Below are positions 3,234-25,005 of a stretch of DNA of 34,100 nt, piece by piece. The position numbers and the translations under genes are program-made. The notes under the pieces were generated by a model. The model was not told the origin of the DNA. It made no database searches and worked only from the letters and a program-made list of their open reading frames with translations. The first letter of the stretch is position 1. Each line of letters starts with the position of its first letter. Source of the stretch: Pilibacter termitis (lineage in GTDB: Bacteria; Bacillota; Bacilli; Lactobacillales; Streptococcaceae); NCBI RefSeq assembly GCF_900167335.1, contig NZ_FUXI01000029.1, forward strand, positions 1 through 34,100. The letters are read 5' to 3'.

Positions 3234-4510
3234 TTGAAAGCGAAGTGTTTCTAAGCGGACTTGACCGTCTGCTGAAAATTCCTAGCGTGCGAGAGGTGGC
3301 GGAGGAAGATGCACCTTTTGGAAAACAAAGTCGTATGGCACTAGAGGAGATTGTCAAAATCGCTCGTGAACTAGGATTTCAAGCACGCATGGTGAAAAAT
3401 GTCGCTGCCGTTGTAGAATACGGTTATGGCGAGGAATATTTCGGGATTTTTGGGCATTTAGATGTCGTACCTGCAGGTTGTGGTTGGAGCGTGCCTCCTT
3501 ATCAGCTGAATGACTGCGGTGAAAAGTTTATCGCTCGTGGCGTTCTTGACAATAAAGGCCCTATTTTCACTTGTCTTTATGCTCTTTGGCGATTGAAAGA
3601 GGAAGGTTTTACGCCAGTCATTCCAATTCGTATCGTTTTTGGTTCGAGTGAAGAAACAGGTTCTGAGGACATGAGCATTTATCTTGAAAATGAACCACCC
3701 GCACTTTTTGGTTTCACACCAGACGGAAAATTTCCTGCGATTTACGGGGAACGTGGTTTGGTAAATTTCTCCATTCGAACAACGCTTGATAGAGCTGCTT
3801 TAAAAAATTTGAGTGAAATCTCTGGCGATCAATCACGTGCATTTGTGCCTGATCATCTTTCCGTTAGCTACAACCAAAAAGAAATTACCGCTTTAGGAAA
3901 AAAAGCTCCGTCAAACGCTCCAGAACTTGGGGAAAATGCGATTACTCTACTTGCAAAAAAACTTTTGGAAGAAAAGTTGCCCGAGAAACTTCGTGAGTAT
4001 TTCACATGGCTCGTTGAGACTATGCACGAAAAACATTTTGGCGAAGGGCTTGGACTTGATTTTTCCGATGAAGAAAGTGGGAAAACCATTATCACGCCTG
4101 TCAATTTCCAAAAATACGAGAACGCTTTGGAAATCGAGTTAGCTGTTCGCTATCCTGTCACTGTGAGCGAAGAAGAATTAACACACGCACTTGAAAAACA
4201 TTTGCCAAGCGAAACACAAGTCGAAGTCGTTCGCAGAATCCCTGGAGTTGTCAAGGATAAAAATCAATGGTGGATACAGGAATTATCCAAAATTTATGAG
4301 GATTTCACAGGATTGAGCGGAAAACCAACAACGACAACAGGTGCTACTTATGCTAGAAGTGTACCAAATATCATCGCCTTTGGTCCCTCATTCCCCGGGC
4401 AAAAAGGAATTGCTCACAATGCAGATGAATATATGCTGAAAGAGGATTTTGAAAAGTTATATGAAATTTACAAAGAAAGTATCAAGGTTTTGAGTTCTCA
4501 TCAATTTTAG
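3230..4510 (+). CDS. M20 family dipeptidase (PepV-like)
   Basis: A cytoplasmic metallopeptidase of 426 residues. M20 motifs are visible in order: GHLDVVPAG (metal His and Asp), GVLDNKGP (bridging Asp), GSSEETGSED (catalytic and metal Glu), FTPDGKFP, and a late metal His in KGIAHNADEYM. This matches PepV-type dipeptidases that split dipeptides, including beta-Ala or D-Ala dipeptides; it is somewhat shorter than the usual 465-470 residues. It overlaps the regulator by four bases, so expression is tied to that GntR protein. No intrinsic terminator is evident; an R1 repeat begins about 20 bases downstream. Confidence 0.85.
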   Translation: MIESEVFLSGLDRLLKIPSVREVAEEDAPFGKQSRMALEEIVKIARELGFQARMVKNVAAVVEYGYGEEYFGIFGHLDVVPAGCGWSVPPYQLNDCGEKFIARGVLDNKGPIFTCLYALWRLKEEGFTPVIPIRIVFGSSEETGSEDMSIYLENEPPALFGFTPDGKFPAIYGERGLVNFSIRTTLDRAALKNLSEISGDQSRAFVPDHLSVSYNQKEITALGKKAPSNAPELGENAITLLAKKLLEEKLPEKLREYFTWLVETMHEKHFGEGLGLDFSDEESGKTIITPVNFQKYENALEIELAVRYPVTVSEEELTHALEKHLPSETQVEVVRRIPGVVKDKNQWWIQELSKIYEDFTGLSGKPTTTTGATYARSVPNIIAFGPSFPGQKGIAHNADEYMLKEDFEKLYEIYKESIKVLSSHQF

Positions 4511-4530
4511 GGAACCTATAAAAACAACAC

Positions 4531-4724
4531 AAAGAAAAATAGAAAAGCGGAGAGGGGCGGTTTGAAGTCTGTGGCAGTGAGCCACGTCGTTCATTTACTG
4601 CTACACTTCGTTTCGCATACAGTCTTTCTAAGAATCAAAGATTCTTGAAAGACTAGCATTGAAACGAAGTTTCAAGCGACGTTGTGAACAGCCACCAGAC
4701 TTCAGCCACTCGTAGCTAGACACA
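4531..4724 (+). repeat. R1 repeat, long form, CTAGACA end facing the 4740 gene
   Basis: A structured repeat of about 194 bp. Its outer arms match other R1 copies, but the apex carries about 70 extra bases, including the hairpin AGTCTTTCTAAGAATC/GATTCTTGAAAGACT. A nearly identical long form lies inverted at 7966-8148. The end CGTAGCTAGACA is followed directly by the AAAAGGAG ribosome binding site of the next gene, so the element probably forms its 5' leader. Confidence 0.85.
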
Positions 4725-4739
4725 AAAGGAGAAAATAAA

Positions 4740-5711
4740 ATGTACGGAATCATCGCAACATGGAGAATGTCGTTAGAGGGCATTTGTGAAGAAATAGAGG
4801 ATTTAAAAAATAACGGAACAATCGAAAACGCATTGGTCAACGCAATTTCAGCAGTCGAGGATTTCCCTTATTATAAATCGGTAGGCTACGGCGGTTTGCC
4901 AAATGAGGAAATGGAAGTCGAATTAGATGCCGCATTTATGAATGGCGACAACATGGCAATCGGTGCGGTGGCGGGAATAAAAGATTTCGCCAACCCTGTC
5001 AAAATCGCTTGCCAACTAAGTAAAGAATATCTCAACAATATGCTCGTTGGCAATGGTGCTGAAAAATACGCTCATAAAAACGGATTTGAGCGAAAAAATA
5101 TGCTAAGTGAGCGAGCGAAAATTCATTATCATAACAAACGCAAAGAATTGCAACTTGCCGAAAAAGAAATCGGCACGATGAAAGCCTATCGTGGTCATGA
5201 TACGGTAGGAATGGTAGGCGTTGATACACTTGGAAGTGTGGCAGCTGCGACTAGCACAAGTGGACTTTTCCTCAAAAAACAAGGACGTGTGGGCGACTCT
5301 GCCCTTTCAGGTTCTGGTTTTTATGCCGATAGCAAAGTCGGTGCTGCTACTGCAACAGGACTTGGCGAAGATTTGATGAAAGGCTGTATCTCCTACGAAA
5401 TCGTCCGTCTTATGAAACAAGGACATTCCGCTCAACTTGCGTGTGAAATGGCAGTGAATGAGTTGGAAAAGGAACTGATTGAGCGAGTAGGTGAGGCTGG
5501 TGATATTTCCGTTGTAGCAATGAGTAAAAACGGTGAATTTGGTGCTGCCTCAACGATCGAGAACTTCTCTTTTGTCGTGGCAAACGAACAGACACCACCG
5601 AGTGTATTCCTTGTCAAACGTGACGGCAAACATCATCTGCACATCCCCGCAACAAAAGAATGGCTAGAAAATTATCTCACTACACGCATGATGCCTTTAG
5701 AAAAAAAATAG
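4740..5711 (+). CDS. N4-(beta-N-acetylglucosaminyl)-L-asparaginase / isoaspartyl-peptidase family Ntn hydrolase
   Basis: The 323 residues match the glycosylasparaginase fold. The hallmark is GHDTVGMVGVD around residues 152-162; Thr155 after HD would be the N-terminal nucleophile exposed by autocleavage into two subunits. A Gly-rich segment follows (STSGLFLKKQGRVGDSALSGSGFYAD), typical of the substrate pocket. There is no signal peptide, so it should be cytoplasmic. The family releases aspartate from glycosyl-asparagine or related amides; the natural substrate here is unknown. The start has AAAAGGAG located right at the end of an R1 repeat. It is convergent with rlmH and shares a terminator. 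Confidence 0.85.
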   Translation: MYGIIATWRMSLEGICEEIEDLKNNGTIENALVNAISAVEDFPYYKSVGYGGLPNEEMEVELDAAFMNGDNMAIGAVAGIKDFANPVKIACQLSKEYLNNMLVGNGAEKYAHKNGFERKNMLSERAKIHYHNKRKELQLAEKEIGTMKAYRGHDTVGMVGVDTLGSVAAATSTSGLFLKKQGRVGDSALSGSGFYADSKVGAATATGLGEDLMKGCISYEIVRLMKQGHSAQLACEMAVNELEKELIERVGEAGDISVVAMSKNGEFGAASTIENFSFVVANEQTPPSVFLVKRDGKHHLHIPATKEWLENYLTTRMMPLEKK

Positions 5712-6600: not shown

Positions 6601-7947
6601 CTAATTTTTTGTTTCAAAATGAATTTGTTCGTTTTCGTAAATAGTTTCATCTAACATATCCAAATCTTTGGCTATCCATAAACCGCTAATGCTATCATCT
6701 AGTACGTTGACCGCTGTAACAAGCATTTCAACTGGTCGATTAATCGCAAGAATGAGCGTATAAGCTGCCATAGCACTTGGATTGACAAAACCTAGTCCGC
6801 TAATAATCGTATAAAGTAAAATTGCTCCCGCCCCCGGTGCTGCTGGTGTGGAAAGCGAGCCAATAAGCGTTAAGGCAATAATCAGCACAATTTCAGAAAA
6901 ACCAATCGAATATCCTCCGCTTTTTGCAATGAAATACGTTGCAATAATTTGCATGATTGCTGTCCCTGTCATATTTAGTGTTGTCGCTAACGGTACGATA
7001 AATGAGGCAATATCTTTGTTCATCCCTAGTTCATCTGTCGTTGTTTCCAAATTCAGTGGCAATGTCGCAACAGATGACGAAGTAGAAAAGGCAAACAATG
7101 CAACTTTATACATTTTCTTGAAATAAATTCTTGGATTGACTTTGATAACAAACTTCAAAATCAATGAAAAGACGACAAGAACAAAGAAAAATAAGGTTAC
7201 AATCGTCAATAACATATACACCATTGCACTTCCAAGATAATTCAATCCATAAGAGGCGAAAGTTCTCGTGATAAGAGCAAAAATCGCAAATGGGCTCAGT
7301 TTTAAAATAACAAAATTCAAGTATTTTATCGCAAGCATATTGATTTCATCATTTAATTTGCTTAGCAAAGTTTTTTCCTTAAATGACTGCAAGCCAATTC
7401 CTACAATCAAAGCAAGTAGAACGACCGACAAAATCGCACCGTTATTGGTAAATGTTGCCACCAAATTGGGTTGAACCAAATCAAGTAGCACCGTAAGTGG
7501 ATTCCCGTTTGCTTTTACCTCACTCACATTATCCAATCCCTTGGGTGCTTCAAAGTGGAAAAGATTCATTGAATACCCCGTCAATCCTACAACCGTTCCA
7601 ATAACAAGAGCAATCGAGAGCAAGATAAAAAGATTGCCAAACGTTTTTTTCGCAATTTTATTGAGCAAACTCGTGTCGTGAATATGCTCAATTGCCTTGA
7701 CAATTGAAGTGAAAATAAGCGGTACAATGATAAACTGCAAACTTTTTAAGAATAATTGCCCAACAAGGTAAAACAGCCCTAGTGATTTCTCCTGCCCCTC
7801 CTGTGTAATATCGACAAAGAGCAAATTGGTAAGTGTCGTCCAAATCTCTTTTGACGAATTTTCACGGACGTAGACGAAAATAAGTCCAAAAACAACTCCT
7901 AATACTAATGATAAAACCGATTTTTTTGCAAATGACATTTTTTTCAA
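6601..7947 (-). CDS. Dicarboxylate/amino acid:cation symporter (DAACS; TcyP-like)
   Basis: An integral membrane carrier of about 445 residues with eight or more hydrophobic segments and the family's re-entrant-loop signatures: FSTSSSVATLPLN (serine-rich HP1), then LNMTGTAIMQ (the NMDGT position in glutamate carriers) and LSTPAAPGAGAI (HP2). It couples uptake of an acidic amino acid, dicarboxylate or cystine to Na+ or H+. The changed NMTGT and overall similarity favour a cystine/TcyP-like carrier, but substrate is uncertain. The start is TTG at 7947 with AGGAAA upstream, or ATG at 7938. The 5' leader carries two R1 repeats and, further up, a structured element ending in a terminator, so attenuation is likely. 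Confidence 0.88.
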   Translation of the reverse strand: MKKMSFAKKSVLSLVLGVVFGLIFVYVRENSSKEIWTTLTNLLFVDITQEGQEKSLGLFYLVGQLFLKSLQFIIVPLIFTSIVKAIEHIHDTSLLNKIAKKTFGNLFILLSIALVIGTVVGLTGYSMNLFHFEAPKGLDNVSEVKANGNPLTVLLDLVQPNLVATFTNNGAILSVVLLALIVGIGLQSFKEKTLLSKLNDEINMLAIKYLNFVILKLSPFAIFALITRTFASYGLNYLGSAMVYMLLTIVTLFFFVLVVFSLILKFVIKVNPRIYFKKMYKVALFAFSTSSSVATLPLNLETTTDELGMNKDIASFIVPLATTLNMTGTAIMQIIATYFIAKSGGYSIGFSEIVLIIALTLIGSLSTPAAPGAGAILLYTIISGLGFVNPSAMAAYTLILAINRPVEMLVTAVNVLDDSISGLWIAKDLDMLDETIYENEQIHFETKN

Positions 7948-7965
7948 TGTTTTGTTTCCTTTCCT

Positions 7966-8148
7966 TTTGTCTAGCTACGAAGTGCTGAAGTCTGGTGGTT
8001 GTTCGCAACGTCGCTTGAAACTTCGTTTCAATGCTAGTCTTTCAAGAATCTTTGATTCTTAGAAAGACTGTATGCGAAACGAAGTGTAGCAGTAAATAAA
8101 CGGCATGGCTCACTACCACAGACTTCAAAACGCCCCTCTCACTTTTCT
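7966..8148 (-). repeat. R1 repeat, long form, CTAGACAAA end facing the symporter
   Basis: Nearly identical, in inverted orientation, to the long-form copy at 4531-4724, including the extra AGTCTTTCAAGAATC hairpin. It ends about 20 bases before the symporter start, next to its ribosome binding site. Confidence 0.85.
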
Positions 8149-8271
8149 TTGTCTAGCTATGAGGGGCAGGAGTTGGGCGACTGCTCACAACGTCGCTCGA
8201 AACTAACGTTTCGAGTAAATAAACGACGTGGTTCGCTGTCGCAAACTCCTGAACGCCCCTCTTCGCTTTTA
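8149..8271 (-). repeat. R1 repeat, standard form
   Basis: A 123-bp copy directly abutting the long form; the junction reads CTTTTCTTTGTCTAGCT. The apical stem is CTCGAAAC/GTTTCGAG and the middle stem is GGCGAC/GTCGC. Confidence 0.85.
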
Positions 8272-8286
8272 TGTTTCTTTTGAAAC

Positions 8287-8432
8287 ATAAAAAAACTTAT
8301 TTGAAATTCATTCAAATAAGCACACCTCTCCAGAATAGTCCCACTGCTCCCTCGGCAGTTCAGACTAAATATGTAAATATAACAACCTATACAGTTCTTA
8401 TAAACCTCTCTGGATTTACTTAAAGAATGATT
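8287..8432 (-). promoter_or_regulatory. Structured leader ending in a terminator (candidate riboswitch or attenuator)
   Basis: The minus-strand RNA starting near 8432 folds as follows: P1 from TCCAGA (8408-8413) and TCTGGA (8329-8334), each followed by GAGAGG; a P2-like pairing TATAA/TTATA; and a P3 formed by AGTC..ACTGC and GCAGT..GACT with loop CGAGGGA. It is followed by a strong terminator, CTTATTTGAA/TTCAAATAAG plus seven T. The 145-nt size, three-way-junction shape and placement before the transporter fit an attenuation riboswitch. It did not match the glycine, SAM, lysine or T-box consensus that I know. A glycine-riboswitch-like GCCGAGGGAGC is present but the matching CUCUCAGG part is absent. 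Confidence 0.55.
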
Positions 8433-8438
8433 TTTATT

Positions 8439-8467
8439 AGTGTATCAAATGTTTTACTTACTTGCAA
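8439..8467 (-). promoter_or_regulatory. Promoter of the symporter leader
   Basis: On the minus strand -35 TTGCAA (8462-8467) and -10 TACACT (8439-8444) have a 17-base spacer. This predicts transcription start near 8432, just upstream of the structured leader. Confidence 0.6.
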
Positions 8468-12447: not shown

Positions 12448-12545
12448 ATTACCTCCTTCTTCTCGTTTCCTTCGAAAATGCTCGAAACTTATCGCTCCAG
12501 CCAAACGAGAACACGATCGAACTGCATCCGATCAAAATCTTTCCT

Positions 12546-12667
12546 TGTCTAGCTATGAAGTGCTGAAGTCTGGTAGCTGTTCACAACAGTACTTGAAGTT
12601 TCACTTCAGGAAAATAAATGATGTTACTCACTGTTACAGACTTCAAAACACCCCTCTCCGATTTCTG
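12546..12667 (-). repeat. R1 repeat, diverged copy
   Basis: A 122-bp copy with CTAGACAAGG pointing towards the small ORF and ugd. The apex (TTGAAGTTTCACTTCAGG) and outer arms are more diverged than in other copies, suggesting an older insertion. Confidence 0.8.
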
Positions 12668-13020
12668 TGAGTTTACATTTATTTACAAGCATTTCTTTCC
12701 TCTACATTATGTGCTTAAATTCATTTTTATTTAATTTATCCTTAGTAAATAATATCATATTCTAATAAAAAATCAATAACTTTTTTCTATATTTTAATCT
12801 TTGTTTTATGATTATATCTTGAACAACCTTTACACGGTTCGAAATCTCTTTATTCACTTGGCTTCACATCATTTTTTCCTATTCTATAAAAATAATCCAA
12901 TTTTTAAATTTATGAACAATTTATAATCCACCTTTCATTTTTAATTCAACTTTTCACAAAAAACGAACGTCTCGTAAGTCAAACGCTCCAACTTATAGAA
13001 AACTCTGATTTTTTTCGCAA
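12668..13020. other. AT-rich intergenic stretch
   Basis: Very AT-rich DNA without a supported gene, RNA or long repeat on either strand. Confidence 0.5.
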
Positions 13021-18874: not shown

Positions 18875-18908
18875 AAACGAGGCTAGAAAATTTCTAGTCT
18901 CGGTTTTC
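18875..18908 (+). terminator. Terminator after DUF2969
   Basis: AAACGAGGCTAGAAA pairs with TTTCTAGTCTCGGTTTT. The first R1 repeat of a three-unit array starts immediately after. Confidence 0.85.
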
Positions 18909-18910
18909 TT

Positions 18911-19280
18911 TGTCTAGCTGCGAAGGGCTGAAGTCTGGCAACTGTTCGCAGTGTCGATCGCAACTGACGTTGCGATTAAATAAACGACACGGCTCACTGT
19001 TGCAAACTTCAAAACGCCCCGCTCCGCTTTTCTGTGTCTAGCTGCGAAGGGCTGAAGTCTGGTGGATGTTCGCAGTGCCGCTTGAAACTTCGTTTCAAGC
19101 AAGTAAACGGCACGGCTCACTTCCACAGACTTCAAAACGCCCTTCTCCGCTTTTCTGTGTCTAGCTGCGAGGGGCTGAAGTTTGGCAACTGTTCGCAGTG
19201 TCGATCGCAACTGACGTTGCGATTAAATAAACGACACGGCTCACTGTTGCAAACTTCAAAACGCCCCTCTCCGCTTTTCT
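18911..19280 (-). repeat. R1 array of three head-to-tail units
   Basis: Units begin (TGTCTAG) at 18911, 19035 and 19158, a period of 123-124. Units 1 and 3 are almost identical, sharing the apex TCGCAACTGACGTTGCGA. Unit 2 differs (TTGAAACTTCGTTTCAA, middle stem TGCCG/CGGCA), giving an A-B-A pattern. The last bases (TTTTCTTA) reach into the stop codon of the next minus-strand gene. This array is at the junction of two converging genes rather than in a leader. Confidence 0.88.
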
Positions 19281-19972
19281 TACCAATCTAAATTTGTTTT
19301 TTCGTTAGTTATTATTTCTTTTTTCACCACGTTGGCTTCTAGCAAGTGTTTGACTGAGTTTGAGACAAAAGTTAATGCACCTTCAAGGTTTCCGTTGTCA
19401 ATATCTTCAAAAATAAAAATTGCTTTTTTGGTTGCAGAATCAATTTTCGTTTTGTCGCTTTCTCGATAATTGAAATTTCTGCACACAATCATATTGCCAC
19501 TTTTATAGACAATTTCTTCTTCATTCGGATGTTCCATTTCCGTTTGCCCGAGCAAAATAAATTCTTCCTCTCCTGTCGCAAACGTTAACTCCAAATCACT
19601 TGGCATTTTCGATAAATCCTCACTACCACACGGAAGTTCAAACTTGAGCGAGGCAAGATTATACAAATCAACAAGCGGGGAAATTCGGTACAATTCATTG
19701 CCGTTTTTCACCCGTTTTATCAACGCCTCAACAGATGAACGAGCTTTCTTCTCTCCAAAACTCTTGTAAATTTTACGCCATTTGGCAATCCGCGGTTCAT
19801 CCGCGAGATTCATCATTCCATATTTCTCCATGATTGCTTGCGTGATTTCGCCATACTCTTGCTTGAAAAAATCATCAATATTTTTTGTGTTGTCAATATT
19901 TTCAAGAATTAGCACCCCAATTTGAAGTTCTGGAATACGCTCAAAAATTCTCTTATCTACTCTAAATTCCAT
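19280..19972 (-). CDS. B3/B4 tRNA-binding domain protein
   Basis: A soluble protein of 230 residues matching the stand-alone B3/B4 domain found in the beta subunit of phenylalanyl-tRNA synthetase. Recognisable elements are FGEKKARSSVEALIKRVKNG, PLVDLYNLASLKFELPCGSEDL and the late ATKKAIFIFEDID. Such proteins may act in trans on mischarged tRNA or on nucleotide-like ligands; the actual role is unknown. The start at 19972 follows GGAGGGG; an upstream TTG/ATG would add a tail that overlaps this site. The gene is solitary. Confidence 0.82.
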   Translation of the reverse strand: MEFRVDKRIFERIPELQIGVLILENIDNTKNIDDFFKQEYGEITQAIMEKYGMMNLADEPRIAKWRKIYKSFGEKKARSSVEALIKRVKNGNELYRISPLVDLYNLASLKFELPCGSEDLSKMPSDLELTFATGEEEFILLGQTEMEHPNEEEIVYKSGNMIVCRNFNYRESDKTKIDSATKKAIFIFEDIDNGNLEGALTFVSNSVKHLLEANVVKKEIITNEKTNLDW

Positions 19973-22748: not shown

Positions 22749-22763
22749 TGTTTTTATCTCCTT

Positions 22764-23022
22764 TGTCTAGCTATGAGGGGCTGGAGTTGGGCGACTGCTC
22801 ACAATGTCGCTCGAAACTGACGTTTCGAATAAATAAACGACATGGTTCGCTGTCGCAAACTCCAAAACGCCCCGCTCGCTTTTCTTTGTCTAGCTACGAG
22901 GGGCTGAAGTCTGGCAACTGTTCGTTGTGTCGCTCGAAACTGTGTTTCGAGCAAGTAAACGACACAGCTCACTGTTGCAGACTTCAAAACGCCCCGCTCG
23001 CTTTTCTTTGTCTAGCTACGAG
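22764..23022 (-). repeat. R1 array: two full units and one truncated start
   Basis: Units begin at 22764 and 22887. A third begins at 23009 but keeps only about 14 bases of the CTAGACAAA end before unique sequence. Apices are CGAAACTGACGTTTCG and CTCGAAACTGTGTTTCGAG. The array separates ychF from the upstream DUF951 gene. Confidence 0.88.
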
Positions 23023-24486: not shown

Positions 24487-24490
24487 AATA

Positions 24491-24985
24491 AGAAAAGCGA
24501 AGAGGGGCGGTAAGGAGTTTGCGACAGCGAACCATGTCGTTTATTTACTCGAAACTTCGTTTCGAGCGACATTGTGAGCAGTCGCCAAACTCCTGCCACT
24601 CGTAGCTAGACAAAGAAAAGCGTAGAGGGGCGATTTGAAGTCTGTGGCAGTGAGACGTGCCGTTTACTTGCTCGAAACGCTAGTTTCGAGCGGCACTGCG
24701 AACAGCCACCAGACTTCAGCCCCTCGTAGCTAGACAAAGAAAAGCGTAGAGGGGCGGTTTGAAGTTTGCAACAGTGAGCCATGCCATTTACTTGCCTGAA
24801 GCTCTAGCTTCAGGTGGCATTGCGAACAGTTGCCAAACTTCTGCCCCTCGTAGCTAGACAAAGAAAAGCGAAGTGGGGCGGTTAGGTGTTTGTCGCAGTG
24901 AGCCACAGCATTTATTTACTGGAAACGCTAGTTTCCAGTGCTGTTGCGAACAGTGACCAAACTCCTGCCCCTCGTAGCTAGACAA
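24491..24985 (+). repeat. R1 array of four head-to-tail units in front of the DUF1129 gene
   Basis: Units start at about 24491, 24613, 24738 and 24862 (122, 125, 124 and 124 bp). All point their CTAGACAAA end to the gene. Apical stems differ with pairing kept: TCGAAAC/GTTTCGA (twice), CTGAAGC/GCTTCAG and TGGAAAC/GTTTCCA. Middle stems likewise: CATGTCG/CGACATT, TGCCG/CGGCA, ATGCC/GGCAT, CAGCA/TGCTG. Confidence 0.9.
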
Positions 24986-25005
24986 AAAAACACACGGAGG
25001 AAAAA

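Follow-up and report, generated by a model that had tools for sequence, protein, structure and literature searches.

A predicted PyrR-dependent transcription attenuator upstream of a candidate orotate importer in Pilibacter termitis

The window analysed here is a 34,100-nucleotide stretch of Pilibacter termitis DNA (positions 1–34,100 of contig NZ_FUXI01000029.1), and it carries on its minus strand a TTG-initiated gene (6601–7947) for a 448 amino acid symporter. The protein falls in the SDF family (PF00375, 274.2 bits against a gathering cut-off of 27.9) and is a candidate orotate importer on the gene contexts and residues of its relatives; in the window it adjoins no pyr gene. A transcription attenuator precedes this gene on the same strand at 8436–8288, where a sequence-only reading of the DNA had placed it, and the distance of about 340 bases from leader to gene given in that reading is correct. 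Within this distance, positions 7962–8278 are made up of copies of a dispersed repeat, recognized by similarity to other copies, which could have altered the coupling between leader and gene. Other copies lie in the window at about 4541–4730, 12539–12669, 18898–19281, 22761–23022, and 24490–24990, and outside it near the pyrK leader (L002, L134) and between pyrP, pyrB, and pyrC (L139, 2784–3278 and 4397–5143). Upstream of the leader, at 8467–8439 on the minus strand, the sequence TTGCAA-17-TACACT with an upstream TG matches the promoter consensus at 8 of 12 positions by eye; this is below the 9/12 threshold of a promoter scan, which lists nothing at 8467–8439, and the element is a plausible candidate promoter but not the "clear" one it had been called.

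The free fold of 8435–8285 has an energy of −37.0 kcal/mol (z −2.75; 1 of 200 shuffled sequences is equally good) and contains each structural element described earlier from the letters: a three-way junction with UCCAGA/UCUGGA as its P1, GAGAGG after both junction strands (8410–8405 and 8330–8325), an ACUGC-CGAGGGA-GCAGU hairpin (8359–8343), and a terminator stem (8320–8296) followed by seven U residues (8295–8289). A simple terminator scan does not list this terminator, because it requires three G-C pairs where this stem contains two. In computed folds of the growing transcript, RNA ending at 8305 forms a long antiterminator (−36.1 kcal/mol), in which a 5′ arm at 8430–8409 pairs with a 3′ arm at 8334–8308 through the helices UCAUUC/GAAUGA, UAAGUA/UGCUUA, and UCCAGA/UCUGGA, with the CGAGGGA-loop hairpin inside it. 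The last of these helices is the former P1; it is present as described, but its role is that of a part of the antiterminator, a structure that has bases in common with the PyrR hairpin and with the terminator. The 5′ arm lies within a PyrR-binding hairpin, or anti-antiterminator (8427–8395, minus strand; UUCUU-UAAG-UAAAUC-CAGAGA-GGUUUA-U-AAGAA), which consists of UUCUU/AAGAA, a UAAG bulge, and UAAAUC/GGUUUA, as given by the RF00515 alignment, the core models R1 and R2 described below, and pair counts; the conserved PyrR-binding stretch, UCCAGAGAGG, is at 8414–8405 by the same alignment and by conservation. The 3′ arm extends into the 5′ arm of the terminator. When the PyrR hairpin is forced, the terminator still forms (−31.9 kcal/mol). 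Since the three energies (−37.0, −36.1, and −31.9 kcal/mol) are close, our claim is limited to mutual exclusion: in silico, antiterminator and intrinsic terminator are predicted to exclude one another, as in known pyr attenuators. The GAGAGG motif is present in both antiterminator arms, its 5′ copy falling in the PyrR-binding stretch and its 3′ copy at 8325–8330.

An Rfam search at the gathering threshold gives no family match at the leader. In the relaxed covariance-model search the best match, which spans the whole model, is to the PyrR binding site family, RF00515 (43.7 bits, E 7.1e-5); this full-length score is below the curated cut-off of 54 bits, as are those of the leader before pyrK-pyrD in this genome (52.3 bits) and of the leaders of three relatives with about 45% identity (51.9, 49.2, and 48.1 bits). 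Other relaxed matches (an L10 leader at 17.5 bits, the rest lower) are far below their cut-offs, and T-box and glycine riboswitch were considered and set aside because neither had a match. The leader resembles RF00515 pyr attenuators in having a hairpin with the UCCNGNGAGG stretch in its upper stem, a 4-base bulge, and a lower stem, a competing antiterminator, a terminator 5′ of the gene, and a PyrR protein encoded in the same genome (NF003548, 280.8 bits against a cut-off of 218). It differs from them in its score, in a greater distance from hairpin to terminator (total length 143 positions, against 115 in the model), and in its target, which is an SDF symporter and not a biosynthesis gene or uracil permease. 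The genome has two further PyrR leaders, one (54.1 bits) that precedes pyrR together with an NCS2 uracil-permease-like gene, and the pyrK-pyrD leader mentioned above; a fourth RF00515 candidate (L004; 23.8 bits, E 0.6) lies at convergent frame ends with no gene downstream and was rejected. The leader is, by prediction, almost certainly a PyrR-dependent attenuator. What had been described as an unassigned riboswitch-like element is thus matched, if below the curated cut-off for the full-length model, by an RNA class that is already known, an outcome which the sequence-only reading had itself named as a refutation; it is the target that is new.

Six of the 395 genomes of the order sample have a symporter match at E ≤ 1e-45, namely the window's own, three others with an identity of about 45%, and two with 32–33%. 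An RF00515 match lies directly upstream of the symporter in all three of the closer relatives, and none was found at the loci examined near the two more distant ones (L009, L010) and the genome's own paralogue (L012), 0 of 3. The relatives search at strict E-value found only the symporter itself in the family sample (1 of 196) and the class sample (1 of 398), and found 1 of 105 in the family of genome G439 and 2 of 76 in that of G294. A single-protein scan of named-genome contigs gave no relatives; an alignment scan of named genomes found 342, and the best 80 of these were taken for analysis. No symporter was found in a scan of viral contigs, and among the 20 matches listed from a plasmid search (215 records) identity is at most 30%.

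A strict PyrR-loop pattern fitted only 4 of 80 leaders and was replaced by covariance models. The first of these, R1, was built for the hairpin core from nine sequences, three of them from the 80 relatives, and detects it 5′ of the symporter in 29 of the 80 (E ≤ 0.1), 26 of which are not in its training set; all 37 R1 matches at E ≤ 0.1 in 600,856 bases fall in one of three places, namely ahead of the symporter, ahead of two NCS2 permease genes (L018, L021), or within leaders known already. The second, R2, was trained on the R1 matches, and all of its 31 positives among the 80, or a near-copy of each, are in its training set; these are separated from the rest by a clear gap (E 5e-4, then 1.3). 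R2 did not find the hairpin in the other 49 of the 80 best named relatives, four of which have less than 400 bases upstream, where its absence says little. Of the 31 leader-bearing loci, 27 have a terminator-like hairpin in the interval from PyrR hairpin to gene, as compared with 1 of 48 controls that have no leader (scanned over a median length of 110 bases; L092, with too little upstream sequence, was omitted), and none was found in the remaining 4 of 31 leaders, including L013–L015, three of the window's four nearest tree relatives. The 5′ arm of the terminator is paired with bases of the hairpin region in 24 of 27 best folds (26 relatives and the window, omitting L089, a near-copy of L069, and the four leaders with no terminator). 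Shuffled arms do the same in 260 of 540 cases, or about half. In the L070 locus the PyrR hairpin (2944–2984) ends at the listed symporter start (2986) and pyrR follows (4406–4945); translational control by the hairpin is possible there, because no room is left for a terminator.

The structure is also supported by covariation, the second check proposed earlier. A MAFFT alignment of nine leaders is 86.9% paired with a covariation score of 0.354, against 77.0% and 0.163 for shuffled alignments, and none of 500 shuffles reaches either value; two of the five measures count against it, in that changes on both sides of a pair are reached by 55 of 500 shuffles and further pair types by 97 of 500. An alignment of 38 sequences (34 distinct), which was fitted to the model and so leans toward the structure, is 89.6% paired with a score of 0.523, against 73.2% and 0.219 (0 of 500 for either); here both-side changes are reached by 37 of 500 shuffles and further pair types by 9 of 500. 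On a tree of 86 rows (the 246 amino acid L090 omitted) presence or absence of the leader can be accounted for by 6 changes, as compared with 27.5 for shuffled labels, and one 40-row clade has no leader. The window's symporter, whose branch is divergent (end branch 0.75, with a long-branch flag), groups with those of Tissierella (L015) and Erysipelothrix (L013, L014, L016), all of which have leaders (support 100/100).

The hairpin and its conservation, the alternative folds, the PyrR gene, and the link to pyrE and pyrF in relatives together argue strongly that the leader is a transcription attenuator operated by PyrR and that the gene under its control imports a pyrimidine precursor, most likely orotate. 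The mechanism as published is one in which PyrR together with UMP favors termination (PMC6212727). By analogy, sensing is predicted to lie with the PyrR protein and UMP or UTP, rather than with a ligand that binds to the RNA. At low UMP/UTP, PyrR would be off the nascent RNA, which could then form the long antiterminator, using up the terminator's 5′ arm, and the symporter gene would be transcribed. When UMP/UTP is high, PyrR would bind and stabilize the UCCAGAGAGG hairpin; because this hairpin takes the same 5′ bases as the antiterminator, the terminator would form and the importer would be turned off. Orotate, once imported, would feed into UMP synthesis by way of PyrE and PyrF. Coupling of the symporter to a cation may be expected from the context.

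The substrate is read mainly from gene context in relatives. In 11 of the 31 leader-bearing loci pyrE lies 3′ of the symporter in the same direction, and in 10 of these pyrF does too; the orders are symporter-pyrF-pyrE (L015, L021, L022, L085), symporter-pyrE-pyrK-pyrD (L034), and symporter-pyrK-pyrD-pyrF-pyrE (L054, L057, L066, L067, L083, L087), and in L070 it is pyrR that directly follows. Some of these neighbor names rest on tblastn with pyr proteins from the same loci, not on one family model each: PyrF and PyrE of L015 are above the TIGR cut-offs, PyrE of L034 is below its equivalog cut-off (156 against 245 bits), and the NCS2 permeases are below the uracil-permease equivalog cut-off (427 and 408 against 477 bits). 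From this context orotate is probably the symporter's substrate. The amino acid, cystine, or dicarboxylate suggested before as ligand fits only the generic Pfam name; the relatives' gene context and the substrate-site residues point to orotate.

The symporter of a PyrR attenuator might instead import aspartate, which PyrB consumes, or another dicarboxylate. The nearest solved structures to this PF00375 protein are aspartate/glutamate transporters, and the window's genome encodes pyrB, whereas neither pyrE nor pyrF was found above cut-off in its assembly. For this last reason, the use of orotate in P. termitis itself is something that we infer. A gap in the assembly may account for the two missing genes, since about 110 bases separate the end of pyrD from a contig edge (L134, G000:C36:1-1057) and the gene order in the congener G007 is pyrD-pyrF-pyrE. 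The contig end after pyrD was also considered as a repeat copy, and blastn with the spacer gave no match at E 1e-3. Against aspartate, relatives of the symporter cluster with pyrF and pyrE, whose products act on orotate and OMP. Furthermore, two single-contig genomes (G294 and G426) have the leader, the symporter, and PyrR, plus pyrF and pyrE behind another PyrR leader (L136 and L137; 39.2 and 35.9 bits), but no PyrB above cut-off (no match in G294; 117 against 237 bits in G426). Because they appear to have no aspartate carbamoyltransferase, these two would have to obtain the ring from outside and are candidate natural orotate dependents.

The substrate site also speaks against aspartate. At the equivalents of Asp390, Asp394, and Arg397 (numbered as we take them to be in GltPh), 83 of 83 readable members among 84, the window's included, have N, E, and V, C, or L (L090 is cut); the last position is V in 74, C in 7, and L in 2, and in the window E407 and V410 stand at the Asp394 and Arg397 equivalents. 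The outsiders L009 and L010 keep D, D, and R, and the paralogue L012 has G, D, and E. The window symporter is like the aspartate transporters GltPh and GltTk in family by sequence and in the Thr398, Asn401, and Asp405 equivalents, which are kept in 83 of 83, but is unlike them in the three replaced positions. The loss of the arginine for the side-chain carboxylate argues against aspartate or glutamate. Neither does the protein reach the NCBIfam cut-offs for DctA (109.4 against 513 bits), GltP (108.2 against 638), or SstT (84.5 against 308), and so is not DctA itself. On balance, aspartate or another dicarboxylate is an unlikely substrate.

A symporter under PyrR control might also take up dihydroorotate or N-carbamoylaspartate, other acids of the same pathway, and both are likely substrates of enzymes in a sister operon. 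Four leaderless Lachnospiraceae-type loci (L024, L031, L044, L048) encode, in this order, a carbamoylase-family amidase (cut and named by eye in L048), a dihydroorotase, the symporter, PyrK, and PyrD. The dihydroorotase is above cut-off in all four (NF006839, 637.7–650.9 against 576 bits), as are PyrK (307.7 against 219), PyrD (398.1 against 269), and the amidase (TIGR01879, 345.1 against 204) of L031, where the end of a PucR-type regulator gene precedes the operon. By its genes this operon looks like one for orotate degradation; orotate fermentation is known from Clostridium oroticum, and the gene content of the four operons matches it. On the other hand, the four symporter-pyrF-pyrE loci have these two genes directly after the symporter with no pyrK-pyrD between them, and orotate is the one metabolite common to the pyrF/pyrE loci and the degradation-like operons. 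We regard dihydroorotate and N-carbamoylaspartate as quite unlikely substrates, and orotate as the preferred one.

Could the leader be degenerate, a PyrR site that insertion of the repeats at 7962–8278 has uncoupled from the symporter and left with no effect? The repeats do lie between terminator and gene, the hairpin is rich in A-U pairs, and the full-length RF00515 score is below cut-off. Yet insertions 3′ of an attenuator need not uncouple a gene from it, the binding stretch and both competing folds are intact, and one lower-stem pair is U-A in the window and C-G in the other eight aligned leaders, a compensated change; loss of function is thus very improbable. The proposal of the sequence-only reading, a new riboswitch class in which the RNA alone senses an amino acid or dicarboxylate, would agree with the compact fold (z −2.75) and with the lack of any Rfam family at gathering score, but the junction strands are the two antiterminator arms and the part conserved in relatives is the PyrR hairpin, and we consider it highly improbable.

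With a PyrR-controlled orotate importer as the favored reading, it seems rather more plausible than not that the symporters with the motif AINRP[IV]EML[VCL]T[AS]xN, present in 83 of 83 readable members, form a dedicated orotate subfamily of SDF that is widespread in Bacillota. Its members would have two opposite uses, UMP supply under PyrR attenuation and orotate fermentation in the Lachnospiraceae-type dihydroorotase/amidase/PyrK-PyrD operons, and some lineages, G294 and G426 for instance, would have lost the front part of the pathway and would depend on imported orotate. Two other transporters invite comparison: DctA, which we take to be an SDF family member like the window symporter, and OroP, whose class TC 2.A.7.21.4 presumably belongs to a superfamily other than that of the PF00375 protein. 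In the relevant parts of the sources, DctA, the C4-dicarboxylate transporter of E. coli and Salmonella, also takes up orotate (PMC13328217), and OroP is the orotate transporter of Lactococcus lactis (PMC12802215). Orotate uptake, the predicted role of the window symporter, is thus a likeness to both; unlike DctA, the window symporter is tied to PyrR and, in relatives, to pyrE and pyrF. Neither the matches listed from the open-access literature on PyrR and symporters, RegPrecise, orotate transport, and Clostridium oroticum nor the passages covered (PMC12802215, PMC4030025, PMC3781023, PMC13328217, PMC3766115, PMC2965389, PMC6212727, PMC12369341, and PMC4490491) place an SDF symporter under PyrR control or describe one as an orotate importer of Gram-positive bacteria, although the supplements of PMC3766115 could list such genes.

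The element is ordinary as an RNA, and its interest lies in linking to a pathway a transporter that otherwise carries just a generic family name. The predicted substrate, orotate, is testable in a single growth experiment. If the prediction is true, Gram-positive bacteria would have a second type of orotate importer besides OroP, laboratory strains would gain another counter-selection marker based on 5-fluoroorotate, and attention would be drawn to bacteria living on orotate from outside.
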